A stretch of DNA of 64,000 bases, taken from assembly GCF_002835935.1 (NCBI RefSeq), contig NZ_PJCF01000008.1, forward strand, positions 62,001 to 126,000. The letters run 5' to 3'. The notes beneath the pieces are model-generated. The model did no database searches and had not been told where the DNA came from. It saw only the letters and a list, made by a program, of their open reading frames with translations. Numbering within the stretch: position 1 is the stretch's first letter; each line of letters starts with the position of its first letter. The DNA comes from Paraglaciecola sp. MB-3u-78 (GTDB taxonomy: Bacteria; Pseudomonadota; Gammaproteobacteria; Enterobacterales; Alteromonadaceae). Positions 42,444 to 61,739 of this stretch are shown here, in pieces. The position numbers were made by a program, and so were the translations under genes.

Positions 42444-42469
42444 AAAAAAAGCGCCATCAAGGCGCTTTA
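42444..42469 (-). terminator. Terminator of the TonB2 operon
   Basis: On the minus strand AAAGCGCC, loop TTGAT, GGCGCTTT followed by T residues, about 22 bp after the TPR protein stop codon. It separates the operon from oxyR. Confidence 0.88.
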
Positions 42470-42490
42470 TTAGAAAGTTGAGACTGACTA

Positions 42491-43813
42491 TTAACTACCC
42501 ACAGAAGCATAAGTAGCAACTTGTTTTCTTTCGCCTTCAACAAATTTTGACCATTGCTGCGCCATTCCGCGGCTACTATCGTATTCTTGCGCCTTGGCAA
42601 GCTGGTTTAAAGCCTCGTTGTATTCGCCAACATTAAATTGCGCTAGACCAATTACCAGATGCGACATACCTTCATTACGCAAACCGCCTTTTTCAAGAGC
42701 TTGTTGTGAAACGCCAATCGCTTGTTTCCATTTGTCCAAGTTTAGGTACATTTGACCCAGCTGAGCATACAACTCACCGGTGTCAGATAATTCAGCCGCC
42801 GCTAACATAACAGGGATCGCTTTTTCAGTTTCTTTAGCAGAATTCCAAGACTGAGCTAAAAACGTTAAGTTACGCTCATCTTCAGGTAACTTATCGGCAT
42901 CCATCGCTTTTTGCATAATGGCGGCAGCTTTGTATGGCATTTGGTGATAATAATAAAGTTGTGCCAAATTGAACATATCTGAGCCGGTGGCGATAAAACT
43001 TTTTTGCTCAGCAATTTCCATGACAGCCAATTGCTTTTCTTCTTGCTCAAGCTCGCCATACATACCTGCAAGTTGTAACCAATATTTAGGCGCTTCAAAC
43101 TTTTTAACTAACTTAAGCAATACATTTTTAACGTTTTCAGGCTGTTTCAGTTCAAAATAGACCGCTCTTTGTAATACATACCACTGCTCGTCTACCTGGA
43201 AACCTAAGTCGTTGCTTTCAATTTGTAGAACCGCCGCGTTGATGTACTTAGATGCCGCTACATAATCTTGCTTTTGATACATAGCTTGGGCTTTTAATAC
43301 CAAATTTTTAGCAGGGATCTCTTTAGATGGATACAGATTCTTTTGAATGGCCTCCCATTGCTCGATTTTTGCAATCGTTTTGTCGTAGTTGCCACGCATC
43401 ATGTGTAATTGAGCCAGACTAAACAACGTGGCTTGTTCAAAGGTTTCTGGAATGGGCTGCTGTTGTACTACGTTTTCAAACGCGGCAATCGCTTGGTCGT
43501 AATTTTCAGCTTCGTAATGAATAAAAGCATAAAAATTATACATCATGGCAAGTTCATAGCTGTTCATTGAACTGGCTTTAGACTTTACATTATCTAAAAC
43601 ATCAAAAGCTTCTGCTTGACTACCCCCGTCAGCTAAACTTTGCGCACGAGATAATTGGTCGTAAACTTTAGAACGCAAAGTGGGCACACGTTTGGTTTGA
43701 CGCTCAACTTCTACTTCTTGTGCGTTAACAACACTCACTTGCAAACCAGACACCAAAACACCCGTCATCAAGACCGGTGCAACTAATTTAAATATTAATT
43801 TATTCATCGACAT
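42491..43813 (-). CDS. TPR-repeat protein, last gene of the TonB2 operon
   Basis: 440 residues from ATG 43813, one base after the tonB stop codon (the longer upstream frame overlaps tonB). A signal peptide (MSMNKLIFKLVAPVLMTGVLVSGLQVSVVNAQ) is followed by at least seven tetratricopeptide-like helix pairs (YNFYAFIHYEAENYDQAIAAFENV; FSLAQLHMMRGNYDKTIAKIE; LYAQLGQMYLNLDKWKQAI; LVIGLAQFNVGEYNEALNQLAKAQ). Known in other gammaproteobacteria as a regular companion of TtpC-type TonB2 systems. It probably scaffolds a periplasmic complex. Its exact task is unproven. Confidence 0.85.
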   Translation of the reverse strand: MSMNKLIFKLVAPVLMTGVLVSGLQVSVVNAQEVEVERQTKRVPTLRSKVYDQLSRAQSLADGGSQAEAFDVLDNVKSKASSMNSYELAMMYNFYAFIHYEAENYDQAIAAFENVVQQQPIPETFEQATLFSLAQLHMMRGNYDKTIAKIEQWEAIQKNLYPSKEIPAKNLVLKAQAMYQKQDYVAASKYINAAVLQIESNDLGFQVDEQWYVLQRAVYFELKQPENVKNVLLKLVKKFEAPKYWLQLAGMYGELEQEEKQLAVMEIAEQKSFIATGSDMFNLAQLYYYHQMPYKAAAIMQKAMDADKLPEDERNLTFLAQSWNSAKETEKAIPVMLAAAELSDTGELYAQLGQMYLNLDKWKQAIGVSQQALEKGGLRNEGMSHLVIGLAQFNVGEYNEALNQLAKAQEYDSSRGMAQQWSKFVEGERKQVATYASVGS

Positions 43814-43814
43814 T

Positions 43815-44435
43815 TTAGCCCCCAAGTTCAAATTTAACCCGCACTTCCACCCCAGATACTTCCATGGGTTCGCCATTTACGACGCGCGGTTTATATTTAT
43901 ATTTTAAAGTGGCATCCAATGCCGCTTGATCAAAAATACCTGCAGGTGATGCTTGTATCACCTTAGGATTGGTTACCGAACCTAACTTGGACACGGTAAA
44001 TTCAACATCTACAAAACCTTCAATACCACGCTGTAATGCCCTTCTTGGATAGACAGCAGATACACGCACTATAGGTAAAAACTCACCATCACCCGACTCC
44101 AGTGCTAGTCCACCTTCAAGGGACAGTTCAGCACCCACATCGGCACCAAAGTCCATACCACTTGTGGCACTTTCTGGACTAGGCGAGTCCATTTTTGGTG
44201 GCGCCATATCGGGTGGCGGTTGATCTGGCTTAGGTGGCTTCTTAGGTTTTCTGTCTTTCTTTTGAACCGCTTCTTCTTTTTTGACTCGCACAAAATCCAG
44301 CACGCTACCTTTAGGTGCATCAGTTAATGCACTGCCACCACTTTGAATGAGCGACTGCATCAAAAAGAACAATCCTAAGGTGACAACTGCCGCCAATAAC
44401 ATGGCTACAATCACTCTTGTTAACGTCTGCGGCAT
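43815..44435 (-). CDS. tonB: TonB energy transducer of the TonB2 type
   Basis: 206 residues: an N-terminal membrane anchor (VIVAMLLAAVVTLGLFFLMQSLI), a short Pro/Lys-rich spacer (KKDRKPKKPPKPDQPPPDMAPPK), and the C-terminal TonB domain at about 110-206 (VYPRRALQRGIEGFVDVEF, GSVTNPKVIQA, ALDATLKYKYKPRVVNGEP), with the YP and W/Y-KYKP motifs that contact receptor TonB boxes. The short spacer and position after exbD match TonB2. 6 bp gap to exbD and 1 bp to the TPR gene. Confidence 0.9.
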   Translation of the reverse strand: MPQTLTRVIVAMLLAAVVTLGLFFLMQSLIQSGGSALTDAPKGSVLDFVRVKKEEAVQKKDRKPKKPPKPDQPPPDMAPPKMDSPSPESATSGMDFGADVGAELSLEGGLALESGDGEFLPIVRVSAVYPRRALQRGIEGFVDVEFTVSKLGSVTNPKVIQASPAGIFDQAALDATLKYKYKPRVVNGEPMEVSGVEVRVKFELGG

Positions 44436-44441
44436 AACGGT

Positions 44442-44849
44442 TTAAGGCTCCTGCGCCGCGATAGACACATCTTCAATACCTGCTGCCCGTGATGCATCCA
44501 TCACTTTAATCAAGACGTCTGTAGTGGCTTTTCTATCCGCCTGAATCACCACAGTACCTTGTGGGTTTTCAGCATATAAACGTTCGATGTTGGCTTGAAC
44601 TGCTCGCACATCGATTTTGCGTTTATTGATCCAAATTTCACCTTTTTCACTGATAGCGACCAAGATATTGGCACGGTCTTTTTTAACCGCAGTGGCGGCT
44701 TCTGGGCGATTCACATCAATACCCGCTTCTTTGACAAAAGAGGCTGTTACGATAAAGAAAATCAACATAATAAATACGACGTCTAGCATAGGTGTCATAT
44801 CGATTGTGGCTTCTTCTTCATCCATCAAGTTTTGGAAATGCTGTTTCAT
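44442..44849 (-). CDS. exbD: ExbD biopolymer transport protein
   Basis: 135 residues with one N-terminal membrane helix, MTPMLDVVFIMLIFFIVTASF, containing the essential proton-carrying Asp in PMLDVVF, and a periplasmic domain (INKRKIDVRAVQANIERL, GTVVIQADRKATTDVLIKVMDAS). It forms the proton channel and force generator with ExbB. In TonB2-type systems it pairs with the ExbB encoded just upstream. The 6-bp spacing to tonB indicates cotranslation. Confidence 0.95.
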   Translation of the reverse strand: MKQHFQNLMDEEEATIDMTPMLDVVFIMLIFFIVTASFVKEAGIDVNRPEAATAVKKDRANILVAISEKGEIWINKRKIDVRAVQANIERLYAENPQGTVVIQADRKATTDVLIKVMDASRAAGIEDVSIAAQEP

Positions 44850-44910
44850 ATCAATCTCTATTTATTAGTTTCGTGGAACACCCAATACAGTTTGAACGCA
44901 CAAAGAGCGA

Positions 44911-45435
44911 CTAGGATTTACGTTCCATTCGAAGCGTGTCTTCAAGACTCGCTTTTTCTTTTTTTGCTGTTCTTGCCAACCATGTTGAGGCGAAAACACC
45001 TGACAAAGCACCGACCATGCCTGCCATAGTGGGGATAGTCGCTTTAGACACGCCAGACGCCATTGAGCGTGCGTTTCCTGAGCCTGAAATCGCCATGACA
45101 TCAAATACTTCAATCATGCCGGTAACGGTTCCCATCAAGCCCAGCAGTGGACATAACGCCACCAGTGATTGGATAATAGGGACACCTGTGCTTAGTTTTA
45201 ACGACACCCGAGAAATCATCCCTTGGCGAATTTGCTCGGCATTCCATGATGAACGTTCTTTTCGTGCCATCCACTTGGCAATCACCGCATTTTTGTATTG
45301 TTTGTGGGTAACAAACACATACATGGCACGCTCTAAAATCATTAACCACATAACAAAAATCAATCCGCCGATAATCAGCAGGACTTGCCCACCGGTTTCG
45401 GTAAAATCGCGAATAGTTTCCAGAATTTCAATCAT
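44911..45435 (-). CDS. exbB: ExbB/MotA/TolQ proton-channel protein (short form)
   Basis: 174 residues with three membrane helices (VLLIIGGLIFVMWLMILERAMY; PIIQSLVALCPLLGLMGTVTGMIEVFDVMA; ATIPTMAGMVGALSGVFASTWLART) and the central LLGLMGTVTGMI motif of the family. It forms the pentameric motor channel with ExbD. It starts 6 bp after the ttpC stop. It lacks the extended N-terminus of TtpC, so the two ExbB-like proteins have different roles. Confidence 0.93.
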   Translation of the reverse strand: MIEILETIRDFTETGGQVLLIIGGLIFVMWLMILERAMYVFVTHKQYKNAVIAKWMARKERSSWNAEQIRQGMISRVSLKLSTGVPIIQSLVALCPLLGLMGTVTGMIEVFDVMAISGSGNARSMASGVSKATIPTMAGMVGALSGVFASTWLARTAKKEKASLEDTLRMERKS

Positions 45436-45441
45436 GATGAA

Positions 45442-46830
45442 TTAAGCTTTTTCGCGACTAATGGCTTCAGCACGCTCGGCAATCACGCCTGCCGCTTGCT
45501 CTTGCAATATATAAACAATGCTTTTACTGCGAGTATTTAATATGGCGTATAGGAGCGTCATAGGAATGGCCACAACCAAACCTAATACAGTTGTAACCAA
45601 TGCAGTTGAGATACCACCCGCCATCAATTTAGGGTCACCGGTACCAAACAAAGTGATTGCTTGGAAAGTGTTGATCATGCCCGAAACGGTTCCAAGTAGT
45701 CCCATCAAAGGTGCCACAACTGAAATCACTTTAATAATGCTCAGAGACCGGCCTAACTTAGGCACTTCACCTAAAATCGCTTCTGTAAGGTGCAGTTCTA
45801 GTGCTTCGGTATCCGCTTCTGGGTAATCGTCTTTAGCTTTCATCACACGGCCAAGAGAGTTGTTGTCTTTGAACGTTGCTGACTTAAGTTGACGGTTAAC
45901 CTTAGCGCCTTCAATAAACAAGGCAATAAAACGCCAGACTGCAATCAACAAACCAACCAAGCCCACAACTAAGATGATGTAACCTACTGTTCCACCTTGC
46001 TCTACACGTTCTTTGAGGCTTGGGGCTTGTACTAATAATTTAAGAATTGAACCACCGGTTGGGTCTAAACCAAACTCAATCAAAGCACCTGATGATTGTT
46101 GCAACTGGGCAGCACTGTCGCCATAACGTCCAGCGGGCTGACGAACCAGCTCAGCTACCGAACCAGTGGTGCCGTTGTAATCTAAGTATTTACCATCTGC
46201 AGCCAAAGCAAAGGGGCCAACACGTAACACTTCCTTGTTGACTTTATTGCCACCGGCTTCAATTACGTCGGTCGTGAATGTAGTCACTTTGCCTGACTCA
46301 GTCATTTCGCGCTGCATTTCAAACCAAACACGCTCAATTTCTTCGATAGAAGCCAGTTTTGAAGACGCTCCCATTGATTGGGCTAAGTTATCTAAAAACT
46401 CCGCACGACCGGGGATTTGTGCAGAAATAATCGAGTTTTGAAATTTGCTTTTGGTATCACCTGATACTTGCTGCAATACCCCAAACAACTCTTTTAACGA
46501 ACCTAAACGTTTGTTCATGGCTTCATTTAAGTCAGCTAATTTAAACTCGTTTTCTTCGAACTGGGTTTCCATTGATTCAGAAGTAGCTAAAGCTGCATCA
46601 CGAGTTTGTTTGGCTTGACGTAACATTTGGTCTTGCTCAGAACGTTTGGCGGCAAACTCTTTCTCACGTTGAACATTTTGTTGGTTTTGCTGAAACTGGC
46701 CTTGTTCAAGTTGTTTTAACAAAGCGTCCAAATTAAGCGCTTTATCTTCTTGAGCCAGAACTAAGTTCGAAGCGAAGCCAATACTGGTTATTAATAGTAA
46801 ATTTTTTAGGATATTTTTCATGTTGATCAT
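45442..46830 (-). CDS. ttpC: TtpC: ExbB-like protein with large periplasmic N-terminal domain
   Basis: 462 residues from ATG 46830 (a GTG at 46839 and an ATG at 46821 are alternatives). Signal-like N-terminus (KNILKNLLLITSIGFASNLVLAQ), a coiled-coil periplasmic part of about 250 residues (LEQGQFQQNQQNVQREKEFAAKR; LRQAKQTRDAALATSESMETQ), then a MotA/TolQ/ExbB domain with VVGLVGLLIAVWRFIALF, APLMGLLGTVSGMINTFQAITLFG and VTTVLGLVVAIPMTLLYAIL. This is the TtpC of Vibrio TonB2 systems, which cannot work without it (known for the family). It extends across the periplasm, probably aiding TonB2, whose spacer is short. Confidence 0.92.
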   Translation of the reverse strand: MINMKNILKNLLLITSIGFASNLVLAQEDKALNLDALLKQLEQGQFQQNQQNVQREKEFAAKRSEQDQMLRQAKQTRDAALATSESMETQFEENEFKLADLNEAMNKRLGSLKELFGVLQQVSGDTKSKFQNSIISAQIPGRAEFLDNLAQSMGASSKLASIEEIERVWFEMQREMTESGKVTTFTTDVIEAGGNKVNKEVLRVGPFALAADGKYLDYNGTTGSVAELVRQPAGRYGDSAAQLQQSSGALIEFGLDPTGGSILKLLVQAPSLKERVEQGGTVGYIILVVGLVGLLIAVWRFIALFIEGAKVNRQLKSATFKDNNSLGRVMKAKDDYPEADTEALELHLTEAILGEVPKLGRSLSIIKVISVVAPLMGLLGTVSGMINTFQAITLFGTGDPKLMAGGISTALVTTVLGLVVAIPMTLLYAILNTRSKSIVYILQEQAAGVIAERAEAISREKA

Positions 46831-46843
46831 GTTTGTCACGCCC

Positions 46844-47611
46844 TTAATCCGTCATCGCTATAGGTAGCATTAGAAGGTCTGGTGCGAGTTGCTTCTTCGC
46901 CATACGCAATCCCTTAGTTACTTGAGTACGATAACTTGAAGACAAGGCTTCCCACTCACGGGTATTTTTGTTCCATGTACCTTGTAAACTGGCGTCACGG
47001 GTTTGATAAATCAGTGCAGTACGACCCACCCGCAAAAAATCCACATCCCGCTCTTGGCCATCAATAGTATGCAAACCACTATAAGCTTCGAGTGTTCGGC
47101 CGTAGTCCATTTCAACTTGGTAAGCTTCCATGACGCGGCGAAATTTTTCTGATGGGGCAATATCGGCTCTGTCCATCATGGCTTGTAACTCAACGACACG
47201 ATTGTTTCTTTCCTGTGCAAGAAAAGGCACGTCCAATGCTACAAACTGTGCAAGTCCAGTGATCATGCGCATCATAAGCGGGGTAATTTGACGTTCGATA
47301 ATGCTGACACCATCAATGGATGCATTTAAGTCATCCATTTCTTGCATTTGATTATCAATTTGTTTTTGCAACTGGCCATTGTATACATCCAAACCAGTCG
47401 TTTCTTTATTGATAGCTTTAAATTGCTGTAATTTGTTATCAATTTGATCTGTGATGTTATTGATTTTTTGTTGAGATTTTGCTGCCGACTCATTGATCTC
47501 AGTTGCTTTTTTAACTGCAGGCTCAAGTGCTTTTTCTTCTTGAGCAACGCTATTTCCAGCCGTCATAAATATGGCTAAAAACGCTGCAGATAACTTGGTC
47601 AGTCGTGTCAT
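46844..47611 (-). CDS. DUF3450 periplasmic coiled-coil protein
   Basis: 255 residues with a signal peptide (MTRLTKLSAAFLAIFMTAGNSVAQ), a long coiled coil at about 30-100 (ESAAKSQQKINNITDQIDNKLQQFKAINKET; LQKQIDNQMQEMDDL) and a globular remainder with YRTQVTKGLRMAKKQLAPDLLMLP. It is the recognised first gene of TtpC-containing TonB2 operons. Function undefined, presumably in the periplasmic complex with TtpC. Short GAGGT ribosome site before ATG. Four consecutive Pho half-sites lie 73-112 bp upstream. Confidence 0.9.
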   Translation of the reverse strand: MTRLTKLSAAFLAIFMTAGNSVAQEEKALEPAVKKATEINESAAKSQQKINNITDQIDNKLQQFKAINKETTGLDVYNGQLQKQIDNQMQEMDDLNASIDGVSIIERQITPLMMRMITGLAQFVALDVPFLAQERNNRVVELQAMMDRADIAPSEKFRRVMEAYQVEMDYGRTLEAYSGLHTIDGQERDVDFLRVGRTALIYQTRDASLQGTWNKNTREWEALSSSYRTQVTKGLRMAKKQLAPDLLMLPIAMTD

Positions 47612-47683
47612 ACCTCAAACCCTAAAATTGGATAACAGAAATTTCTGTTATTTAAAAAACTGCGCAGAGGATAAGGGCTGTAT

Positions 47684-47723
47684 GTGACATAAATATTACA
47701 GATAAATGACGCTAAAATGACAA
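47684..47723 (-). promoter_or_regulatory. Pho box array upstream of the TonB2 operon
   Basis: On the minus strand four 7-mers in phase, each 11 bp apart: TTGTCAT, GCGTCAT, CTGTAAT, ATGTCAC, with TTTA, TTAT and ATTT between. This equals two complete PhoB operators (consensus CTGTCAT, four A/T bases, repeat). Its 3-prime end lies 73 bp before the DUF3450 start. Matches by eye; occupancy is inferred. Confidence 0.8.
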
Positions 47724-47888
47724 CAACAATAGTGACAAAATGTGTCTTTTGTTTAAGCTTTTATAAAGAGCCGTGAATACCTTGTTTTACTTGGTCTAAG
47801 GCTGTATTTAGGAAAAAATGTCTAACCTAATACCAAGAGTATTTATCTGATTTTTTTACAAATTAATATTAAGACATGACCATTAAAT

Positions 47889-47917
47889 ATAAAAAAAGGG
47901 CCACCTGAAGTGACCCT
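47889..47917 (-). terminator. Terminator after the TonB-dependent receptor
   Basis: On the minus strand AGGGTCAC, loop TTCAG, GTGGCCCT followed by seven T residues, about 20 bp after the receptor stop. It ends the lipoprotein-receptor unit, so the TonB2 operon needs its own promoter, supplied by the array at 47684-47723. Confidence 0.88.
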
Positions 47918-47937
47918 ATGATAAAAATACGAATAAC

Positions 47938-50610
47938 CTAAAAATCGTATTTTAAAGATAAACTCACTTTTGTTCCTTTCGTTTGAGAACGCAACAGTAC
48001 ATCTTCAAATTCTAAGGATTTATTTTCACCTAAAAGGTTTTGCACTTTAAAGGTCACAGTAGTATTAAAATTTGGATAATATTTATAAACCGTATCCAAA
48101 GAATGGAAGGGTTGTTCATAACTATCATCAAAACCATCTATACCCGGTATCAGTATTCGCTCACCAAATACATTGTAAACAACAGATAAGGAATGTTCCC
48201 CGTTGGCTGAATCATAACCCCCTTGCATATTTGCCACATATTGAGAATGGCCAGTTAAGCGACGAGTTAGATTGGTCACCGCCGCAGACAACCCCGTTTG
48301 ATCCACAATATTTTGCCTGTCTAAGGTGATCTCTGAATCACTAATGGTCAAGTTACCGGATAAAAATATACTCTCCCAAACACCATCACCAAAAGATTCT
48401 AAGCCCTGAAGAAATTCAAATTCTAAACCGTATAACTCCCCCGTCTCTGCATTCGCAATTTTTATGAGTGGAGGGCCATCCTGTGCTGGTGATTGCACCG
48501 ATTCTATTGGTGCATCCATATCTTTATAAAACAAACCAATAGAAATGTTATTACCCGCTTCGCGATACCACTCCCAACGTAAATCGTAATTTAAAATTGA
48601 TGTTGTATCGATGCCCGGAGTACCAGAAGTGGGGAAACCGGTCAGAGGGTCAATAAAGGTTGATGACGACACTTCACGCAAATCAGGTCGAACAACGGTT
48701 TGGCCTATACTGGCTCTAAACTGCATTGAGTCATCTTTAATGTAAGTAAAAGCCAAGGCAGGATAAAAGTCATCTTCCTGAAATGCTAGTTGGCCGCGAT
48801 CAGCGTCATCTGGTAAGTCGATTTGATTCGTTCTTGGATCAAAGGGTGCCACCACTTGCCGAAAGTCTTCAAATCTAGCACCGCCGCTAACACGCCATTT
48901 TCCTTTGTAAAATAAATCTGCTTCCAGATAATATGCATCGACCTTTTGCGCAGCGACATAATCATCACCAGCAATGGTGGTATCACGAAGGATAGCGGTG
49001 GTATTGAAACGACTAGGGTCTGCCAATACCTCATCACTCAATATAGAAAAGAATGAACTACCCACTAAATCCATGCTGTCTGAAAATGCTCGGGTATTAA
49101 TATCAAAGGTACGGCTTTCTGATGAACGTGTTTTAGAGAGAAAGTCACCGCCCACTTTAATTTCTATTTCCCAGTCTTTAACAGAAATAGGATAGGTAAT
49201 GTTATATCCATAGTTTTCTAAGCGGTCATGTAGATTTTGAAACGTATAACGAGCAGCAGTTGTAGAGTTGTTCAATGAACTTTCATTTTGAGTATCAAAA
49301 AAACCATCTTCATTGGCATCAGCTAACACAAAACGCGATTCGACATTTCCAGGGGCGTATCGAAGCGAGCGGCCTAAGGAATACTTCCAGTCCAGTCCGG
49401 CAAAGTTAAGTAACGGGAAAGTATGCATACCGCGTATTTGGTTGGTATACATTTTTCGTTCTTCATATTCCACATCAATGTCGCGGATCCGCAAACCTTC
49501 TGCAAGGTTCAAGTTTTCTGTATTACCTAAACTTTCACTGATTTCATCACTGGTATCGCTGAGTAAAATCAAACTATAATCGATACGATGATTTCGATTA
49601 AAATCAACACCTAAATTCAGCATGTTTGACCATTTCACAGTCGTTTCAGTGACTGAGATATCATCAAAAAACCGCACTATGTTGATCGAATCGCCAACAC
49701 GGTCAGCTTGCTCTAACTCATATTCTTCAGAAACCGTGGTTTCGTTGTCGTAACTGGTGGTCCATAAAAATCCGATACGCCAGTTATCGGTAAGATCAAC
49801 ACTATTACCCAGAGAAAAACCAAAACCAACATCTGGGCCAATACTTTTCAAGAAAGAATCATAGTCTCGATTCACATCCTTTAATAAAGATAAGGCCACG
49901 TCTTCATCTAAATCATCTAAAAATTGTTTATTATCCCAACGAGTCTGTATCGAGTTAGGTACTGCTCTTGTGCCATCATCCCGACCAAGCCAATCCTGGC
50001 TACCGCCATTATAAGAAAAGGCATCCCCTGAATTTTCAGTGTTGTAACCTAAATTACCTGACATATTAAACAAAAAGTTATCTGGAATAGTTTTCAGGCG
50101 AATATCCACATTACCACCACCAAAGGATGCAGGCATTGAGGGTGAAAATGCTTTTTGAACAGATAAACTTTCGATAATGTCTGAAGGGAATAAATCCAAT
50201 GGAATAACATTACGGGTTGGATCAGGACTAGGAACTGCCGCCCCATTTAACTGAGTGCTCGAGTATCTCTCACCTAAGCCTCGTACGTAAATAAACTTGC
50301 CATCAACCAGAGTCAAACCGGTGACACGACGTAGTGCTGATGCCGCATCACTGTCACCTGTTCTGGATATTTGTTCGGCGCCTAATATATCGGCTACAAA
50401 TGCCTGATTTTTTCGTTCCTCTATAACAGCCGTAGCTGTACCTTTTAACCGTGTGCCTGTTGTCACAACCTCATCAAGTACGTCGTTTTCATTTTGACTT
50501 TCTTGGCTTTCTTGCCCTTCTTGTCCTATCACGATTTGCGACAGGGTTAACGAAGCAAGCACGGCAAGCGTGAGTGGTGTGACTCGGAACCTATTTTCAG
50601 GCTTATTCAT
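47938..50610 (-). CDS. TonB-dependent receptor of the Pho-linked cluster
   Basis: 890 residues from ATG 50610 (GAGGT 5 nt upstream; the upstream ATG/TTG codons lack one). Signal peptide (TPLTLAVLASLTLSQIVIGQ), TonB-box-like DEVVTTGTRLKG, a plug with FIYVRGLGERYSSTQLNGA, VPSPDPTRNVIPLDLFPSDII and SFGGGNVDIRLKT, then a barrel ending in VSLSLKYDF. The Arg-Gly-Leu-Gly-Glu-Arg-Tyr plug motif marks a large receptor class distinct from siderophore receptors. It lies next to a TonB2 operon and downstream of a Pho-boxed lipoprotein gene, so its substrate is inferred to be phosphorus-containing; direct evidence is absent. Confidence 0.92.
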   Translation of the reverse strand: MNKPENRFRVTPLTLAVLASLTLSQIVIGQEGQESQESQNENDVLDEVVTTGTRLKGTATAVIEERKNQAFVADILGAEQISRTGDSDAASALRRVTGLTLVDGKFIYVRGLGERYSSTQLNGAAVPSPDPTRNVIPLDLFPSDIIESLSVQKAFSPSMPASFGGGNVDIRLKTIPDNFLFNMSGNLGYNTENSGDAFSYNGGSQDWLGRDDGTRAVPNSIQTRWDNKQFLDDLDEDVALSLLKDVNRDYDSFLKSIGPDVGFGFSLGNSVDLTDNWRIGFLWTTSYDNETTVSEEYELEQADRVGDSINIVRFFDDISVTETTVKWSNMLNLGVDFNRNHRIDYSLILLSDTSDEISESLGNTENLNLAEGLRIRDIDVEYEERKMYTNQIRGMHTFPLLNFAGLDWKYSLGRSLRYAPGNVESRFVLADANEDGFFDTQNESSLNNSTTAARYTFQNLHDRLENYGYNITYPISVKDWEIEIKVGGDFLSKTRSSESRTFDINTRAFSDSMDLVGSSFFSILSDEVLADPSRFNTTAILRDTTIAGDDYVAAQKVDAYYLEADLFYKGKWRVSGGARFEDFRQVVAPFDPRTNQIDLPDDADRGQLAFQEDDFYPALAFTYIKDDSMQFRASIGQTVVRPDLREVSSSTFIDPLTGFPTSGTPGIDTTSILNYDLRWEWYREAGNNISIGLFYKDMDAPIESVQSPAQDGPPLIKIANAETGELYGLEFEFLQGLESFGDGVWESIFLSGNLTISDSEITLDRQNIVDQTGLSAAVTNLTRRLTGHSQYVANMQGGYDSANGEHSLSVVYNVFGERILIPGIDGFDDSYEQPFHSLDTVYKYYPNFNTTVTFKVQNLLGENKSLEFEDVLLRSQTKGTKVSLSLKYDF

Positions 50611-50694
50611 TTTAACCTCATTAGCTGCCAACTACTTTGCAGCCATGTAACTGAACATTGATGATAATTCATTGAAAACTAAACATTTGAAAAG

Positions 50695-53577: not shown

Positions 53578-53641
53578 CGTGTGCTCCAAATGCGAATCAT
53601 TTTATAAGAATTAAAAAACGCGAGAAGAATAACGAAGGAGC

Positions 53642-53659
53642 ATGACAGTTTTGTTACAT
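53642..53659 (-). promoter_or_regulatory. Pho box upstream of the lipoprotein gene
   Basis: On the minus strand ATGTAAC AAAA CTGTCAT: one exact and one 5-of-7 half-site at 11-bp phase. It lies 65 bp before the lipoprotein start; TATTCT about 10 bp after it could serve as a -10 element, the layout of PhoB-activated promoters. Confidence 0.72.
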
Positions 53660-53768: not shown

Positions 53769-53865
53769 GGCTTTGGTATGATATAACTTACTGTTAATAG
53801 AACTGAATACTGAATTCACTGGGATGAGTTAATGACATCCATTTTTGGTTAAGATTAAAGATCGT

Positions 53866-54918
53866 TTAAAGCGCTATTTGCAAACGAGCTCGAAATTCAC
53901 TGCCATCATCATCAGTGATATTATCTTTCGCGTCAGTAAAAGTTGCACCGATGCGAATAAAATTATTTAGATAATAATTGACACCAATACCGTATGAGGT
54001 CGCATCGGTAGAACCAAGTTCCTCGTCTGAGTATGCGCCATCCCCATCTTCGTAGCGAACAACCAACTCCCAAGCACCAGATGAATTACCGGGTTTCACG
54101 CGCTTAAAAATGCCGTTTTTATAGGGTCTTGTTTCACCAGTGATGATCCAACCTGCTTGCACATATAATCCTTCACGGTTTACGTTATTTTCTTCAGAAG
54201 AGATAAATTCAGACTGAATATGATAAGGACCTTTCCCATAGGCCACTTCTAGACCGGTGATCTCGACATTTGCGGCGCGGTTACTATGAGCCACCCCAAA
54301 ATGAAGCACTTGATCAGCAGAATTGATCGGGGCATAAGTCACTCGGCCGGTCACAGCTGTTCCATCGTTTGCAGCATCGTCTTCAAATATCCCAAGGGCA
54401 TAAGTGATATCACCACGCTGACCACTGAAGAGTATGCCTTCTTGACGTCCGGGCACATAAGCTTCAGTAACGGCAGAGCGTTCAAGGTAGCTAATACCTT
54501 TTGATGACTCTAGGTGTTCCAAACCGAAGGGTTCTTTTTGATTACCAATAGTGACAACGGCTTGTTTACCCCAGCCGTTGTATCTTATATACAAATCCTC
54601 ATGGGTTCCGCCATTGCCATTACCTACATTGAATTGCACTTTGTAGGACCAATCCTTCACGTTCCCAGAGAGATACAGACGCGCTCGGCGAATATTAAAA
54701 TCATCTTCATCAGCCACACCATTTAGCTCAGCATAATTGTAATCCCACTGAATATTCCCACCCAGTTTGGCTGAATAAAGACCATCAGATGTTTTAATTT
54801 CAATGGGCCCTTTAATATTGACGACTACATCATCTCCATCGGTCGTCACCACGCCGGCGAACAGAACATGAGGTAACAATAGGAGCGCACAAAACATAAC
54901 CAAATTACGTATTAACAT
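53866..54918 (-). CDS. Phosphate-selective porin family protein (OprP/OprO-like)
   Basis: 350 residues with a signal peptide (MLIRNLVMFCALLLLPHVLFA). LGGNIQWDYNYAELNG, FNIRRARLYLSGNVKDWSYKVQFNVGNG, DLYIRYNGWGKQAVVTIGNQKEPFGLEHLESS, YLERSAVTEAY, GVNYYLNNFIRIGATFTDAKDN follow the OprO/OprP porin family of 16-strand beta barrels. Pseudomonas members pass phosphate or polyphosphate under starvation. The perfect Pho box upstream supports the same role here. GGAAAACT precedes the ATG. It ends in Leu rather than the usual aromatic residue. Confidence 0.88.
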   Translation of the reverse strand: MLIRNLVMFCALLLLPHVLFAGVVTTDGDDVVVNIKGPIEIKTSDGLYSAKLGGNIQWDYNYAELNGVADEDDFNIRRARLYLSGNVKDWSYKVQFNVGNGNGGTHEDLYIRYNGWGKQAVVTIGNQKEPFGLEHLESSKGISYLERSAVTEAYVPGRQEGILFSGQRGDITYALGIFEDDAANDGTAVTGRVTYAPINSADQVLHFGVAHSNRAANVEITGLEVAYGKGPYHIQSEFISSEENNVNREGLYVQAGWIITGETRPYKNGIFKRVKPGNSSGAWELVVRYEDGDGAYSDEELGSTDATSYGIGVNYYLNNFIRIGATFTDAKDNITDDDGSEFRARLQIAL

Positions 54919-54973
54919 AGTTTTCCAAAATTAAGAGCTGTAGTCGATTGCCATTTTATTGGATAAGCTACAG

Positions 54974-54991
54974 ATGACACTTTTATGACAG
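54974..54991 (-). promoter_or_regulatory. Pho box upstream of the porin gene
   Basis: On the minus strand CTGTCATAAAAGTGTCAT: the first half-site is the exact consensus, the second has six of seven. It is 56 bp before the porin start. Confidence 0.85.
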
Positions 54992-55212
54992 GGCGGAATT
55001 ATTGCATTTTTATCGGTTTTTAATAAAGTTTTATTGAATTATTTTTAAAAACCAAATGCCATTCAAATTAAATGACACACCAACCGCCAACACAACAGCA
55101 ACGGTCAGGTGAAATAATGCAATCAAATAGGGTCCAGAAAGGATTTTTTCGCTATGTAAACAAGAAAATTAGTGGCTTTAAGAAGCTACATGGGAATTAA
55201 AGATTTCACATG

Positions 55213-55238
55213 AAAAAGCCAGCTACAAGAGCTGGCTT
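55213..55238 (-). terminator. Terminator of the pit operon
   Basis: On the minus strand AAGCCAGCT, loop CTTGT, AGCTGGCTT followed by T residues, about 52 bp after the Pit stop codon. It separates the pit operon from the porin gene. Confidence 0.88.
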
Positions 55239-55289
55239 AAACACTGTCAATCTATTTTAGAACAAGACAGTCAATTAAAGAATGTTGGT

Positions 55290-56558
55290 CTATGGAGCAA
55301 AAATACCTTTAATCATAAAGAAGAATATTATCGACAACCCCGCACCTGCCGGTAGTGTTATCACCCAAGAAACCACAATGTTTCTGACTACACCTAAGTT
55401 AATTGCAGCGATACCTCTAGCCATACCTACACCTAAGACAGCGCCGACTAACGTTTGCGTAGTTGAAATGGGTAATCCAGAACCAGAAGCTATGACCACT
55501 GTAGTAGCAGCGGATAGTTCAGCGGCAAAGCCGCGACTGGGTGTAAGGTGAGTAATGCCATTACCTATGGTTTTAATCACTCGATGGCCAAACAATGCCA
55601 AACCCGCAACAATACCGATGCCCCCAAGAGGTAAAATCCACCACGCTAACGAGGATGTTGCGCCAATTACGCCTCCGCTTTCTACAATACTCACTACCGC
55701 AGCCAAAGGACCGATAGCGTTGGCCACATCATTTGAACCATGAGCAAAAGCCATACAACATGCAGTCACTATCATAAGCACCGCAAATACTTTTTCAACA
55801 TTAGCAAATTGTGCTTCTTTTTTAGTCGTTGGATCGATTTTTATACGTCGAATATACAGCCTTCCTGCGATACCAACGAGCACGGCTATACCGATAGCAA
55901 TAAAATAACCTTGATCAGTTGGGATATTTAATCCAACGTGTTTCAGACCTTTCTTTATTGTCACCAAAGCCATAACAAAACCGGCAAGGGCCATATAAAA
56001 AGGCACATAACGTTTGGCACTTTCAAAAGGATTGTCAGTATCAAAAATGAGTTTTTGCGCAGATTGGAAAATCATATAGGCAATAAAACCGGATATAGCC
56101 GGCGTAATAACCCAACTACCTACTATTCCTCCAACTTTAGTCCATTCTACGGCATCTGGGCTGACACCTACGGCGGCAAAGCCAACTATCGCACCAATAA
56201 TAGAGTGAGTAGTCGATACCGGCCATCCAAGATAAGAGGCAAACGCTAACCAAATACCTGCAGCAAAGAGCGCTGATATCATACCAAAAACTAATAATTC
56301 TGGTGTATTGATGAAAAATGCCGAGTCAATAATACCTTTACGGATAGTTGATGTGACTTCACCACCAGCCAAATAAGCGCCTGCAAACTCAAATATCATC
56401 GCAATAAAAATGGCTTGCTTAATTGTCAGTGCTTTTGAGCCAACCGATGTGCCCATAGCATTGGCTACGTCATTTGCACCAATGCCCCATGCCATTAAAA
56501 ATCCAACCGCAGCGGCGACTACGATTAAAATAAAACCGTAATTGTTAATAATATCCAT
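55290..56558 (-). CDS. pit: Low-affinity inorganic phosphate transporter (Pit family)
   Basis: 422 residues and about 10-11 membrane helices. Both inverted signature repeats are present: GANDVANAMGTSVGSKALT near 30 and AHGSNDVANAIGPLAAV near 270. PiT proteins carry metal-phosphate complexes with protons into the cell. It follows the PhoU-like gene by 10 bp, the usual arrangement for this subfamily. No Pho box of good quality lies upstream, consistent with Pit being constitutive. Alternatively it could prefer another phosphate-like oxyanion, which the sequence cannot settle. Confidence 0.92.
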   Translation of the reverse strand: MDIINNYGFILIVVAAAVGFLMAWGIGANDVANAMGTSVGSKALTIKQAIFIAMIFEFAGAYLAGGEVTSTIRKGIIDSAFFINTPELLVFGMISALFAAGIWLAFASYLGWPVSTTHSIIGAIVGFAAVGVSPDAVEWTKVGGIVGSWVITPAISGFIAYMIFQSAQKLIFDTDNPFESAKRYVPFYMALAGFVMALVTIKKGLKHVGLNIPTDQGYFIAIGIAVLVGIAGRLYIRRIKIDPTTKKEAQFANVEKVFAVLMIVTACCMAFAHGSNDVANAIGPLAAVVSIVESGGVIGATSSLAWWILPLGGIGIVAGLALFGHRVIKTIGNGITHLTPSRGFAAELSAATTVVIASGSGLPISTTQTLVGAVLGVGMARGIAAINLGVVRNIVVSWVITLPAGAGLSIIFFFMIKGIFAP

Positions 56559-56568
56559 TGTAAATCTC

Positions 56569-57246
56569 TTAGTTGGCTAACATCAATTCGAGGCGAGAAC
56601 CGACTCGTTCGGAAATATCGGCCAACTCGCCGACCCAATCAATAATGCTATATAAAAACATCACGTCTACGGGATTGAGATCTTTTTCAAGTGCTAGCAA
56701 TCCTCTTCGCAGACTAATTTGTAATTTATCAGTATCGTCTTCGATCTCATCTAATCGTTCGATCATGTTTTCAACTACACGTACTTCGCGGCCTCTAAAA
56801 CCTGTTTCTAAAAGGTCATCAAGTTCGTTAATTACTTTTTTCGCTTGATTAGTCGCATCTAAACAACGCTTCAAATATTCCAAAAAGGACTCGTGAAGCT
56901 CTGAAGGAATTGCCAATTGACGACCTAACATACGCCCTGATATATCTTTTGCCTTATTCGCAATTTTGTCTTGTTGAGTCAGTAAATCCAACACATCTTG
57001 ACGTTGAATTGGCATAAAAATACCCATAGGTAAATTAATTCGCAGTTCACGTTTTATTTCATCTGCTTCTTTTTCTAACATCGAAATGGCTTTCTGATGT
57101 TCTTGTGCAGTTTTCCAATCTTGGGCATACACAGCTTTAAAGAAGGGCAATAACCCTTGACTGCATTTATGTACAACATTGATGTGATCTTCTAGGGGCT
57201 TAAGCGGTGATTTTGCAAACACCCCCAAAAAGGTATTTAATGGCAT
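56569..57246 (-). CDS. PhoU-like DUF47 (TIGR00153) protein, partner of Pit
   Basis: 225 residues from ATG 57246 (GAAGAG 8 nt upstream; the TTG at 57261 belongs to that ribosome site). MPLNTFLGVFAKSPLKPLEDH is the conserved beginning of the TIGR00153 family; the rest is helical (LEKEADEIKRELRINLPMG, IANKAKDISGRMLG, DEIEDDTDKLQISLRRGL) like the PhoU three-helix bundles that hold metal clusters. It is encoded just before Pit and is thought to regulate it. First gene of the two-gene unit. Confidence 0.9.
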   Translation of the reverse strand: MPLNTFLGVFAKSPLKPLEDHINVVHKCSQGLLPFFKAVYAQDWKTAQEHQKAISMLEKEADEIKRELRINLPMGIFMPIQRQDVLDLLTQQDKIANKAKDISGRMLGRQLAIPSELHESFLEYLKRCLDATNQAKKVINELDDLLETGFRGREVRVVENMIERLDEIEDDTDKLQISLRRGLLALEKDLNPVDVMFLYSIIDWVGELADISERVGSRLELMLAN

Positions 57247-57543
57247 AACTTTTCTCTTCAATTTAAAACATGGTTAACGATAGACTACTTTGGGGAGTCG
57301 ACACCCGAAATTTAAATATCAATTTTATAATCACATTAATTGTAACAATTAAATGTGGCATTTTAATTACAAAGAAAACTTTATATTTTCAAAGCACCCA
57401 ACATAACCTGTATTTCGTTACTTTACTGTTAAATAATACCTTACATCTAATTAAGAATGTATTAGGCTACTTAATAGAGCATCAGGTTAAGAGAGCATCA
57501 GGCTTTCTATATTCTCACTTTATTACAAAAATGTGACACTTTT

Positions 57544-58047
57544 ATGAAACCCATAATATTTACTTTAGTTGGAATCGACAAACCAGGATTGATCAGTGAT
57601 TTAGCCAAAACTGTTTATGACATGGAAGGCAACTGGTTAGCCAGTAACTTTTCACACATGGCGGGACATTTTGCTGGATTTGTACAAGTCGACTTGCCCC
57701 TAGAAAAACACCAGACACTCATCGAACGTTTATCAGAACATCCAGATCTAAAAATACACTTGTTACCGGGAGTGACTGAGCCTCAAGGGGAACATCAAAG
57801 TGTGCAGATCGATATTATGGGCAACGACAAAACCGGTATTGTGCAAGAGATAACGCAGATATTAAGTCAATTTAACCTGAACATAGTCAAATTTGATTCA
57901 TTCCTCGAAAGTGCACCTAATTGGGGTGGTGTTTTATTCAAAGCTAAAGCCACCATTACGGTTGCAGCTGATTTTGATCTAGAAACGTTACGAGACAGCT
58001 TAGAAAGCGTAGCAAACGATTTAGTGGTAGATATTGAAATCCAGTAA
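57544..58047 (+). CDS. GcvR-like protein with two ACT domains
   Basis: 167 residues. Domain one, FTLVGIDKPGLISDLAKTVYDMEGNWLASNFSHMAGHFAGFVQVDL; domain two, QIDIMGNDKTGIVQEITQILSQFNLNIVKFDSFLESAPNWGG. Each is an ACT ligand-binding domain with the DKxG-type turn. The protein resembles GcvR, the repressor partner of the glycine-cleavage regulator GcvA, and is also like other two-ACT regulators of amino-acid metabolism. It lies just before ppk but the Pho box between them shows that ppk has its own promoter. No strong ribosome site is seen. Confidence 0.85.
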   Translation: MKPIIFTLVGIDKPGLISDLAKTVYDMEGNWLASNFSHMAGHFAGFVQVDLPLEKHQTLIERLSEHPDLKIHLLPGVTEPQGEHQSVQIDIMGNDKTGIVQEITQILSQFNLNIVKFDSFLESAPNWGGVLFKAKATITVAADFDLETLRDSLESVANDLVVDIEIQ

Positions 58048-58059
58048 ACTAAATGGCTG

Positions 58060-58077
58060 CTGTCATCAAATTGTCAT
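58060..58077 (+). promoter_or_regulatory. Pho box upstream of ppk-ppx
   Basis: CTGTCAT CAAA TTGTCAT: one exact and one 6-of-7 half-site at 11-bp phase, 47 bp before the ppk start and immediately after the GcvR-like gene. Confidence 0.85.
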
Positions 58078-58123
58078 AATTGCACTAGACGATTGATAAC
58101 GTTAAATATGTTAAGAGCGAAGT

Positions 58124-60211
58124 ATGCCTAATACCCAAAACATTTATTATCCTAAAGAACTAAGCTGGCTTTCCTTTAATCAACGAGTATTACAAGAAGC
58201 AACCGATGTAAACAACCCCATCATTGAACGTATACGATTCCTTGGTATTTATTCAAACAACATGGATGAATTTTATCGCGTTCGAGTGGCGGATGTTAAA
58301 CGTAAAATATATATCCACTTAAACGAAGGAGAACTTGAAGAGGCTGAACAAACCAAATTATTGATGGAAAAAATTCAGGAAAAAGTCTTGGGTATGACCA
58401 AAGATTTTGACCGCATTCATTCCAACGTAGTAAAAGGTTTAGCCCGATACAATATATTTTTACTCGGCGAAGGAGATCTCAACGACTACCACACTCAGTG
58501 GTTAAGTAATTATTTCAAAAATAAAATTTTACGGCATATCGCTCCTGTATTACTCAACAAAAAAGTTAAGTTGGTCTCCCGATTAAATGACTTTGCTACT
58601 TACCTTTATGTCGGTGTTCACAAAGATGATAAAGCCATTGCTTATGCAACGATTGAAGTGCCGAGCCAGAACATGTCACGCTTTGTGGTGATACCACCAG
58701 AAAAAAGCCGCAAAAAGAAATACATCATTTTATTAGATGACATTATTCGCTTGAATTTGGAGAGTATTTTTAAGGGGTTTATTGAGTTTGATTCTCTTGA
58801 GGCATTCTCTTTTAAAATGACCCGGGATTCTGAATATTCTCTCAATGATGAAATAGATGAAAGTTATGTAGATAAAATGTCAGAAAGCATGAAACAAAGG
58901 TTGATTGCAGAGCCGGTTCGCGTAGTGCACGACAGCAGAATGCCTAGCGAAATGCTTAAAGATTTAAAAAAACGCTTAAAAATTTCTTCCTACGACAGCC
59001 TTATTTCCAGTGGCCCTTATCGAAACTTTAAAGATTTTATTGGATTTCCAAATGTGGGCCGTGATTATTTAGAAAACCAAGAGCTACCCGCTCTTACATC
59101 TAAAGATTTTTCTGAATACGACACCGTATTTGATGCGATTACCGCTAAAGATATCCTGCTGCATTATCCCTATCACCGTTTTTTACATGTGACTGAATTT
59201 ATTCGCCAAGCTGCTTTTGATCCCAGTGTGAAACACATTCGCTTGAATATATATCGAGTAGCTAGTCAATCAAGAGTCATCAGTTCATTAATTGATGCGG
59301 TAGATAATGGCAAAAAAGTCACTGTTGTGGTTGAGCTGCGCGCTAGGTTTGATGAAGAAGCAAACATCCAATGGTCAAAGAAAATGACCGATGCCGGTGT
59401 GCAAGTGGTCTTTGGTATGCACGCGTTGAAAATTCATAGCAAATTGTGTGTCGTCACTCGCGAAGAAAAAGGGCAATTAATAAACTACGCTCATTTTGGC
59501 ACCGGCAATTTCAACGAAAAAACGGCAAAGATTTACACGGACTTTAGTTTATTTACCCGTAATCAAGAACTCGCTAATGAAGCCGAAGCTGTTTTTACAT
59601 TTATTCAGCAGCCCTACAGAAGACAAAAATTTCAGCATTTACAAGTGTCGCCACTCAATGCGCGAACCAAAATTCAAGCCTTAGTGCGCCAAGAAATACA
59701 AAACGCTAATGAAGGCCTGAATGCTAAAATAACATTAAAAATAAACAACTTAGATGATAAGTTACTGATTGATGATTTATACAAAGCCAGTCAAGCTGGG
59801 GTCATAATCACTGCTATTATCCGTGGTATGTGTTCATTAGTCCCTGGGGTAAAAGGATTAAGCGAGAATATTAGTGTCATCAGCGTTGTTGACCGCTTTT
59901 TAGAACACCCAAGAGTGATGGTGTTCGAAAATGCAGGAGACACAAAAATGTTTATTTCTTCTGCCGATTGGATGACCCGCAACATGGATTTTAGGATTGA
60001 AGTGGGGTGTCCTATCTATGACGAAGATTTAAAACGCAGAATAATGGATATATTGCAGATACAATTTAATGACACACTTAAAGCCCGTGTAATAGACAAA
60101 CAGCAAACCAACCATTACGTCACTAGAGGCAATCGTAAAAACCTGCGCTCTCAAACTGAAATTTATCGTTATTTAAAAGCACTAGAAAAGGACAAAAATG
60201 TCGCGCGCTAA
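58124..60211 (+). CDS. ppk1: Polyphosphate kinase 1
   Basis: 695 residues, the usual PPK1 length. N-terminal YYPKELSWLSFNQRVLQEA, RIRFLGIYSNNMDEFYRVRVA; the catalytic His is in IHSKLCVVTREEKG near 437 (autophosphorylated His), with the second conserved His in FLEHPRVMVFENAG near 594 and the YAHFGTGNFNEKTAKIYTDFSLF motif. It makes inorganic polyphosphate from ATP reversibly. It overlaps ppx by 14 bp, so both are cotranslated, and a Pho box lies upstream. Confidence 0.97.
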   Translation: MPNTQNIYYPKELSWLSFNQRVLQEATDVNNPIIERIRFLGIYSNNMDEFYRVRVADVKRKIYIHLNEGELEEAEQTKLLMEKIQEKVLGMTKDFDRIHSNVVKGLARYNIFLLGEGDLNDYHTQWLSNYFKNKILRHIAPVLLNKKVKLVSRLNDFATYLYVGVHKDDKAIAYATIEVPSQNMSRFVVIPPEKSRKKKYIILLDDIIRLNLESIFKGFIEFDSLEAFSFKMTRDSEYSLNDEIDESYVDKMSESMKQRLIAEPVRVVHDSRMPSEMLKDLKKRLKISSYDSLISSGPYRNFKDFIGFPNVGRDYLENQELPALTSKDFSEYDTVFDAITAKDILLHYPYHRFLHVTEFIRQAAFDPSVKHIRLNIYRVASQSRVISSLIDAVDNGKKVTVVVELRARFDEEANIQWSKKMTDAGVQVVFGMHALKIHSKLCVVTREEKGQLINYAHFGTGNFNEKTAKIYTDFSLFTRNQELANEAEAVFTFIQQPYRRQKFQHLQVSPLNARTKIQALVRQEIQNANEGLNAKITLKINNLDDKLLIDDLYKASQAGVIITAIIRGMCSLVPGVKGLSENISVISVVDRFLEHPRVMVFENAGDTKMFISSADWMTRNMDFRIEVGCPIYDEDLKRRIMDILQIQFNDTLKARVIDKQQTNHYVTRGNRKNLRSQTEIYRYLKALEKDKNVAR

Positions 60212-61739
60212 TACTGTACTTGATTCAACCTTCGATAACGTAGAAATAAGAGACTCGATTAAAGTCGCTGCGTTAGACATTGGATCGAATAGTTTTCACC
60301 TAGTGGTTGCACGGATTGTGGCAGGCTCAGTTCAGATACTTCACAGGGTTAAGCAAAAAGTGCGCTTAGGAGATGGTTTAGGTACAGACGGAGCTTTATC
60401 TGAAGAAGCCATGCAGCGTGGCTTAGATACATTAGAAGTGATAGCAGAGAGCCTTCAAGGTTTTGAACCGCAATCTGTAAGAGTGGTTGCCACCCATGCG
60501 TTGCGAAAAGCGAGTAATGCAAAAGAGTTTTTAAGAGCCGCTAAAAAGGTCTTTCCTTTTCCAATTGAGATCATCTCTGGAGCAGAAGAAGCGCGGCTTA
60601 TTTATCAGGGCGTCGCCCACACTAATCATCAAGAAGGCCAGCGCTTGGTAGTGGATATTGGTGGTGGTTCAACCGAATTTATTATTGGTGAGGGGTTTGA
60701 GACTAGAGTATTACGCAGTCTACAAATGGGTTGTGTGAGTTATACCAATCGTTTTTTTAAACAAGGTGAACTTAAACAAAAAGCCTTTAACCGGGCCATT
60801 ACCAGTGCTCAACAAGAATTGGAGATGATCGATAAAAAATACAAACAGCTAGGCTGGAATACTTGTATTGGTACATCAGGCACTATCAAAATTATAATCG
60901 AGCTAGCAGCTCAACTTGATAGTACCAATAGAGAAAATCATGTGTGCTTGACTGACTTGCTCACATTGATGGATTTATGCTGTGCGGCTGGCAATAGCAA
61001 AGATTTACAGATTCAAGGTCTGACTGATGATCGCCGTCCAGTATTTGCAGCGGGTTTGGCTATATTAATTGCTGCGTTTAAAAGTTTGGATATTCAGGAA
61101 ATGGAATATTCTCAAGATGCCCTACGTGAAGGTGTGTTATATGAAATGGAAGCTCATTTAACCCATCCTGACATCAGGCAGCGCAGCGCTGAGAGCCTAG
61201 CCACCCGTTATGACGTTGACGTAGAACAAGCGAAACGGGTGCTTGCCACTACCATGGAGCTGCATCAGCAGTGTAAAAAAGCTTGGAAAATCGACAATGA
61301 AGAACTAAAAAACATGTTGGCTTGGTCTGCCTTGTTACATGAGGTGGGTTTACAAATTAATACCCGTGGCATTCAGCGCCATTCAGGTTATATATTGCAA
61401 AATATCGAATTACCCGGATTTGGACAGGAACAACAAAACTTACTGGCTATATTAACTAGGTTTTACCGTAAAAAAATCAAAGTAGCAGAAATACCTGAAT
61501 TCACCCTTTTAGCTCAAGAGCAAGTGTATAAGCTTATTGCGTTATTACGCTTGGGGGTGCTGCTCAATATCAAACGTCAAGACGATATTTTACCCAAGAT
61601 TGTACTCAAAGCAGATGGAGATACATTGCACCTACAATTTCCTGATGAATGGCTTGAGCAAAAACCGGTATTTGGGGCGGATATTGAACGTGAGAGTCAC
61701 TATATTCAAGAGCTAGGGATAACCTTGAGTTACAAATAA
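60198..61739 (+). CDS. ppx: Exopolyphosphatase (Ppx/GppA family)
   Basis: 513 residues. VAALDIGSNSFHLVVARI, VVDIGGGSTEFIIGEG, GMCV-like LQMGCVSYTNRFF, IGTSGTIKII and the C-terminal HD-like helix domain (LLHEVGLQINTRGIQRHSGYILQN) are those of Ppx/GppA. It removes terminal phosphates from polyphosphate; some members hydrolyse pppGpp instead. The pairing with ppk in one overlapping operon favours exopolyphosphatase. Confidence 0.95.
   Translation: MSRANTVLDSTFDNVEIRDSIKVAALDIGSNSFHLVVARIVAGSVQILHRVKQKVRLGDGLGTDGALSEEAMQRGLDTLEVIAESLQGFEPQSVRVVATHALRKASNAKEFLRAAKKVFPFPIEIISGAEEARLIYQGVAHTNHQEGQRLVVDIGGGSTEFIIGEGFETRVLRSLQMGCVSYTNRFFKQGELKQKAFNRAITSAQQELEMIDKKYKQLGWNTCIGTSGTIKIIIELAAQLDSTNRENHVCLTDLLTLMDLCCAAGNSKDLQIQGLTDDRRPVFAAGLAILIAAFKSLDIQEMEYSQDALREGVLYEMEAHLTHPDIRQRSAESLATRYDVDVEQAKRVLATTMELHQQCKKAWKIDNEELKNMLAWSALLHEVGLQINTRGIQRHSGYILQNIELPGFGQEQQNLLAILTRFYRKKIKVAEIPEFTLLAQEQVYKLIALLRLGVLLNIKRQDDILPKIVLKADGDTLHLQFPDEWLEQKPVFGADIERESHYIQELGITLSYK

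Follow-up and report, generated by a model that had tools for sequence, protein, structure and literature searches.

The TonB2 system of Vibrio, consisting of TtpB2, TtpC2, ExbB2, ExbD2, TonB2 and TtpD2, serves iron transport and has a putative Fur box (PMC6957404). In Pseudomonas aeruginosa, the TonB energizer genes exbB2-exbD2-tonB4 (PA0693-PA0695) are reported to belong to the PhoB/sigma-VreI phosphate-starvation regulon (PMC7035377, PMC4971064, PMC12186492). Low-phosphate TonB receptors are described in Caulobacter (PMC11208175), where the lipoprotein ElpS (CC0170) and the TonB receptor CC0171 are tied to phosphate starvation and their homologues co-occur (PMC2996285). Flavobacterium has PusCD and TonB receptors that are induced by phosphate starvation, two of which have downstream lipoproteins; the low-phosphate lipoproteins are described as weakly like pectate lyases, and plant-associated strains as being without PstSABC (PMC8115612). 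The locus described here lies within one 64-kb stretch (the window, positions 62,001 to 126,000 of contig NZ_PJCF01000008.1) of the 6.48-Mb genome of Paraglaciecola sp. MB-3u-78. As read from its sequence, it is a conserved PhoB-type TonB2 energizer, which probably serves a module for phosphorus scavenging under PhoB control as its own TonB motor of the TtpC type. Among the papers listed in a search of the open-access literature, with subscription journals mostly outside its scope, none deals with a TtpC-type system linked to Pho or with a role of TonB2 when Alteromonas responds to phosphate.

The energizer operon has the same six-gene set and order as Vibrio TonB2, complete from TtpB through TtpC, ExbB, ExbD and TonB to TtpD as judged by Pfam profiles, but unlike the Vibrio operon it is preceded by Pho boxes and has no Fur box above background. 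It resembles the P. aeruginosa set in that energizer genes appear under a phosphate-starvation regulon, and this precedent weakens the claim of the initial annotation that a TonB energizer dedicated to phosphorus would be unusual. The two nevertheless differ, since the P. aeruginosa gene table shows no TtpB, TtpC or TtpD, the set there stands with pdtB under the phdA promoter, and the available text names no lipoprotein-receptor partner. Like elpS, the lipoprotein gene here encodes a lipobox, adjoins a TonB receptor gene and has a link to phosphate starvation. Unlike ElpS, to which it is likened by description, the Paraglaciecola protein is duplicated, with 938 residues, and its gene sits beside pit or phoBR, often with a TonB2 operon. 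The Flavobacterium system differs in phylum and in its SusD partners, and the text of PMC8115612 makes no mention of ExbB. With regard to a SusD-type partner like that of PusCD, the lipoprotein here has no Pfam match and a beta-helix model. All genes of the locus, including Pit and its PhoU-like partner, are of the kinds and at the places given by the initial annotation (Table 1). The longest reading frame of the ttpD-type gene overlaps tonB, so its true start may be further in.

The sites were scored with a PhoB matrix built only from the 59 E. coli sites obtained by chromatin immunoprecipitation sequencing (PMC10294691, Table 1), and therefore independent of the Paraglaciecola genome. The four PhoB-type sites of the initial annotation are all recovered (16.8, 20.4, 18.2 and 19.3 bits), and a fifth place is added, about 260-290 bp upstream of phoU-like/pit. 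Six sites in the window reach at least 16 bits, all of them between 47.6 and 58.1 kb, compared with none in a 400-kb sample of the same genome. At a threshold of 14 bits the window has six sites versus 0.8 per 64 kb in the sample, and at 13 bits ten versus 1.9. The whole genome contains 25 perfect matches to TGTMAYNNNNNTGTMAY, compared with 13 to the reversed pattern used as a control, and five of the 25 fall inside this 10.4-kb stretch (Poisson p ~1e-9). The consensus CTGTCATNNNNCTGTCAT, with up to three mismatches, separates the window only weakly (10 matches versus 5.6 expected) and is superseded by the matrix. Since the promoter of phoB itself in this genome scores 16.2 bits with the same matrix, the sites in the window rank with an established target; sites by pst-linked genes are detected as well. 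The comparison with background and the ranking against known Pho sites, both proposed with the initial annotation, thus come out in its favour. Fifteen of the 20 perfect matches outside the stretch lie inside a reading frame. The best out-of-frame one among these 20 is a 19.5-bit Pho box 74 bp before the gene of a 618-residue choice_anch_I protein (G000:C34:296327, L323), which is likely a further member of the regulon. The boxes ahead of phoU-like/pit overlap the start of a divergent ACT-domain gene, which is on the plus strand, as are ppk and ppx.

The promoters of the first two units share a characteristic layout, in which a -10 hexamer lies nine bases past the proximal box, the spacing found in E. 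coli phoA. A TANNNT hexamer at this offset is present in 21 of 25 distinct TonB2 promoters of the clade described below and in 24 of 28 distinct lipoprotein promoters. In some relatives up to five overlapping Pho boxes, phased at 11 bp, precede TtpB (L214, 2771-2832; also G002, G006-G009, G013 and G016).

The box is conserved in relatives and marks a single paralogue. Two sets of relatives, whole genomes and loci, were compared; they partly overlap, so that their counts are not additive, and because the sequences are related the p values give no more than a rough indication. Most genomes in the family have two DUF3450 (TtpB) matches each. In a DUF3450 tree of 72 rows, the Pho-linked copy falls in a 31-row clade with support of 98/95, whose members all come from this family; membership follows the tree, which places G054 outside and G027 inside. 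A Pho box of at least 14 bits precedes 28 of the 31 clade members versus none of the 41 other DUF3450-TonB operons when the strand of the gene is scored, and it is the absence from the latter that restricts the box to one paralogue. The same score is reached in 2.7% of 518 other open reading frame upstreams. Among upstream regions of 300 bp or more, boxes of this strength precede the lipoprotein gene in 31 of 37 cases, the PhoU-like gene in 11 of 13, ppk in 10 of 12 and the porin in three of five, while the control genes inside the units have none directly upstream (receptor 0/34, pit 0/15). In the second set of 32 loci, which includes Alteromonas marina, A. gracilis, Glaciecola pallidula, Aestuariibacter halophilus and Ningiella ruwaisensis, the lipoprotein box is found in 30 and the TtpB box in 25 of the 26 whose stretch includes TtpB. 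Retention in relatives, a further check suggested with the initial annotation, is therefore seen in both sets.

Linkage to the regulator genes themselves goes beyond the evidence of that annotation. In many relatives the order is phoB, phoR, (pstS), (2OG oxygenase), lipoprotein, receptor and TtpB to TtpD; the genes often follow phoB-phoR in Alteromonas and Glaciecola, and phoB-phoR adjoins the lipoprotein gene in 24 of the 32 second-set loci. The phoBR pairs of the three loci tested with hidden Markov models (L039, L045 and L063) exceed the cut-offs of TIGR02154 and TIGR02966. PhoB and PhoR of the Paraglaciecola genome, encoded on C23, are also above both cut-offs, and under the stricter PRK10161 model this PhoB scores 402, below the cut-off of 471.

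In the mechanism proposed for this module, phosphate starvation would place phosphorylated PhoB on the tandem 11-bp repeats, which would replace the -35 element, and PhoB would bring RNA polymerase to the -10 hexamer nine bases downstream. The units induced in this way would be the lipoprotein with its receptor, the six-gene TtpB-TtpC-ExbB-ExbD-TonB-TtpD motor, the porin, the Pit transporter together with the PhoU-like protein, and Ppk-Ppx. At the cell surface, the lipoprotein with its two beta-helix domains may bind a ligand that carries phosphorus and pass it to the receptor, and the TonB2 motor may power its transfer into the periplasm, where phosphatases would release phosphate if needed; Pit would then import the phosphate and Ppk store it. 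That the ligand carries phosphorus is suggested by the regulon, while linkage and shared control suggest that the motor serves this particular receptor.

Several observations on control, linkage and ligand weigh against this reading. At the ppk, porin and phoU-like/pit promoters listed, no -10 hexamer stands out at nine bases from the box. Three clade members fall below 14 bits, two of them with arrays (G021, 11.9 bits; G017, 12.1 bits) and one without (G033, 9.6 bits). Among the 41 other DUF3450 operons one reaches 12.0 bits (G046), and another is matched at 14.1 bits on the strand opposite to the gene (G034). Two Colwellia loci (L273 and L274) have the lipoprotein-receptor pair with weaker sites (12.3 and 12.6 bits) and no TonB2 operon in the stretch examined. 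A score of at least 16 bits is also reached by nine of the 20 perfect TGTMAYNNNNNTGTMAY matches elsewhere in the genome, which counts in favour of the alternative that the sites are chance occurrences or operators of another OmpR-family regulator and that the unit is not phosphate-regulated. A regulator pair of this type, considered as PhoBR and rejected (212 bits versus a cut-off of 296), is in fact encoded at 61846-63973 of the window. Even so, it is very improbable that the sites belong to another regulator or to chance, given that the same matrix finds the site of phoB itself and those by pst-linked genes, that the genes are linked to phoBR, pit and ppk, and that conservation is specific to the clade; chance in particular is rejected on the basis of the 400-kb sample, the 518 other upstreams and this clade-specific conservation. 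Control by Fur, as in iron transport, is likewise rejected, since no Fur box above background is present at the TonB2 promoter in either TonB2 class. The best match in the window to a Fur consensus has 11 of 19 bases, and 13 are reached by 9.5% of background upstreams. The overall reading of the initial annotation, a TonB2 system under phosphate-starvation control that takes up a phosphorus-containing substrate, is upheld in part, with its regulatory half withstanding the in-silico tests.

Linkage is incomplete as well, with no more than 15 of the 31 clade members having the TonB2 operon directly behind the receptor. G010 has the lipoprotein and receptor beside pit without a TonB2 operon there, and G030 has the pair but no TonB2 member of the clade, so the motor is not obligatory. 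These two genomes and the 16 operons that are not directly behind the receptor would fit a TonB2 operon that is induced by PhoB but general in function, so that many receptors, for iron, vitamins or glycans, would gain extra TonB capacity without dedication to phosphorus. Five matches to other TonB-domain proteins and two further DUF3450 operons in the genome point in the same direction. Such a general role nevertheless appears unlikely, because a further 11 operons lie within about 21 kb of the receptor, leaving five that are remote or on a different contig, and because two distant genomes show this neighbourhood again. Three of the five remote operons are still boxed (G016, 16.9 bits; G025, 20.0 bits; G029, 19.6 bits). 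In a wider sample of 274 genomes from the class, the lipoprotein family occurs in 20, of which 18 are outside the Alteromonadaceae; most of these 18 neighbourhoods were viewed to 1.5 kb. The receptor is at most 1.5 kb from the lipoprotein gene in 12 of the 18, a full TonB2 operon is beside it in G084 and G268, and in G314 at least the TPR gene is nearby. G268 has a 14.9-bit box before TtpB, and in G084 no box in the stretch scores as high as 11 bits. The partnership of receptor, lipoprotein and TonB2 therefore extends beyond the family. The loci L331 and L332, from distant genomes of the class, have the lipoprotein gene next to a complete TonB2 operon.

The lipoprotein has a lipobox at residues 22-25, preceded by a signal peptide, both read by eye. 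It has no Pfam or NCBIfam match, and in the nearest named loci, from uncultured Paraglaciecola, its counterparts are 94, 90 and 87% identical. The predicted structure is a right-handed beta-helix of the kind seen in NosD, in tailspikes and in polysaccharide lyases. The top Foldseek rows for the model are PL6 alginate lyases, with E-values of about 1e-5 and TM-scores of at most 0.25; a beta-helix fold in common with lyases, seen here in a predicted model, does not give the function of the lipoprotein. The proteins encoded nearby in relatives include porins, PstS, a 2OG-Fe(II) oxygenase and an alpha/beta hydrolase, with no phosphatase among the proteins tested and no clear lead to the substrate. 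Further points against the proposed module are that the unit has no phosphatase gene, that the receptor has no relative by sequence among solved structures, and that the Caulobacter receptor gene beside elpS is reported to be constitutive (PMC2996285). The receptor and TonB2 motor might instead serve the surface delivery or release of the lipoprotein, or the signalling of phosphate status. Caulobacter ElpS speaks for such a role: it requires the type II secretion system, its gene adjoins both the receptor gene and genes of that system, and its overproduction is accompanied by more secreted phosphatase activity (PMC2996285). On the other side, no signalling domain is seen by Pfam. A full energizer with a plug-and-barrel receptor is the standard import kit, and a role in delivery or signalling in place of nutrient import is accordingly improbable.

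Alteromonas and related bacteria are common in the sea and often short of phosphorus. A conserved TonB motor that is marked by PhoB sites and frequently partnered by a receptor gives concrete access to the question of how phosphorus passes the outer membrane, a step usually ascribed to porins. It also makes testable the nutrient specialisation of TonB energizers and the function of PhoR where Pst and PhoU are gone.

The latter situation appears to be common in Paraglaciecola. At E-value thresholds of 1e-80 for PstB, 1e-40 for PstC and 0.001 for PhoU, 15 of the 22 Paraglaciecola genomes, including the present one, yield none of these three proteins, and the other seven yield all of them; each of the 14 genomes sampled from other genera of the family has PstB. 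One of the 15 Pst-less genomes, G012, is only 84% complete, while G001 and G004 are single contigs. A protein of PstS length is above the cut-off in three of them (G004, G015 and G018), several others have only short PstS matches of 150-171 residues near the cut-off, and the present genome has no PstS match in the profile search, even though it has PhoB and PhoR. The position of the lipoprotein-receptor pair differs between the two groups. In the Pst-less genomes the pair is beside phoU-like/pit in ten, beside a PhoBR-type pair in three and in an unclear context in two, whereas in all seven Pst-containing genomes it is beside a PhoBR-type pair and in none beside pit (Fisher p 0.005 for pair beside pit, uncorrected for kinship). 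In G009, the one pst-containing locus read in the genus, the pst genes and phoU fill the slot beside pit. It is conceivable, though on balance doubtful, that the receptor-lipoprotein unit powered by TonB2 has taken the place of the high-affinity Pst importer in most Paraglaciecola. Energy spent at the outer membrane would then raise the periplasmic level of phosphate or of a phosphorus ester, the low-affinity Pit would suffice, and PhoR would be read without Pst or PhoU, perhaps via the PhoU-like partner of Pit. This idea draws on the missing PstB, PstC and PhoU, the retention of PhoBR and the Pho boxes in the present genome, the position of the pair beside pit and the arrangement in G009.

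Table 1. Features of the Pho-linked TonB2 locus, in window coordinates; Pho box scores refer to the strand of the gene concerned.
Feature	Position	Strand	Score, profile or other evidence
ttpD-type gene, TPR protein	42491..43876	-	TPR families
tonB	43815..44435	-	PF03544
exbD	44442..44849	-	PF02472
exbB	44911..45435	-	PF01618
ttpC-type gene, long MotA/TolQ/ExbB protein	45442..46839	-	PF01618
ttpB-type gene (DUF3450), leads Pho-linked TonB2 operon	46844..47611	-	PF11932, 302 bits; in 31-row tree clade
-10 hexamer TATCCT, TonB2 operon, nine bases past proximal box	47668..47673	-	sequence
Three overlapping Pho boxes, 11-bp phased, TonB2 operon	47683..47722	-	16.8, 13.6, 11.1 bits
TonB-dependent receptor, partner of lipoprotein	47938..50631	-	PF00593, PF07715
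Lipoprotein, 938 residues, lipobox LAGC, two predicted tandem right-handed beta-helix domains, ElpS-like	50773..53589	-	
-10 hexamer TATTCT, lipoprotein gene, nine bases past box	53626..53631	-	sequence
Pho box, lipoprotein-receptor unit	53641..53658	-	20.4 bits
Porin_O_P, phosphate-type porin	53866..54918	-	PF07396, 165 bits
Pho box, porin	54973..54990	-	18.2 bits
Pit-type phosphate transporter	55290..56558	-	PF01384
PhoU_div (DUF47), Pit partner (phoU-like)	56569..57261	-	PF01865
Two overlapping Pho boxes ahead of phoU-like/pit	57521..57549	-	17.6, 16.8 bits
Pho box, ppk-ppx	58061..58078	+	19.3 bits
ppk, polyphosphate kinase	58124..60211	+	PF17941, PF13090
ppx, exopolyphosphatase	60198..61739	+	PF02541

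Other TonB-related genes were encountered beside these features. A second TonB beside the lipoprotein gene in G040 proved to be a fusion of peptidase M56 and TonB_C, encoded close to an efflux pump, and was rejected as an energizer operon. The Paraglaciecola genome has a third, divergent DUF3450-TonB operon at G000:C5:143576 (L056), beside a 927-residue gene product encoded on the other strand. The window also encodes, at 27659-28813, a 384-residue protein with a TonB C-terminal domain (TonB_C, C4:90349-90585), which lies outside any energizer operon.

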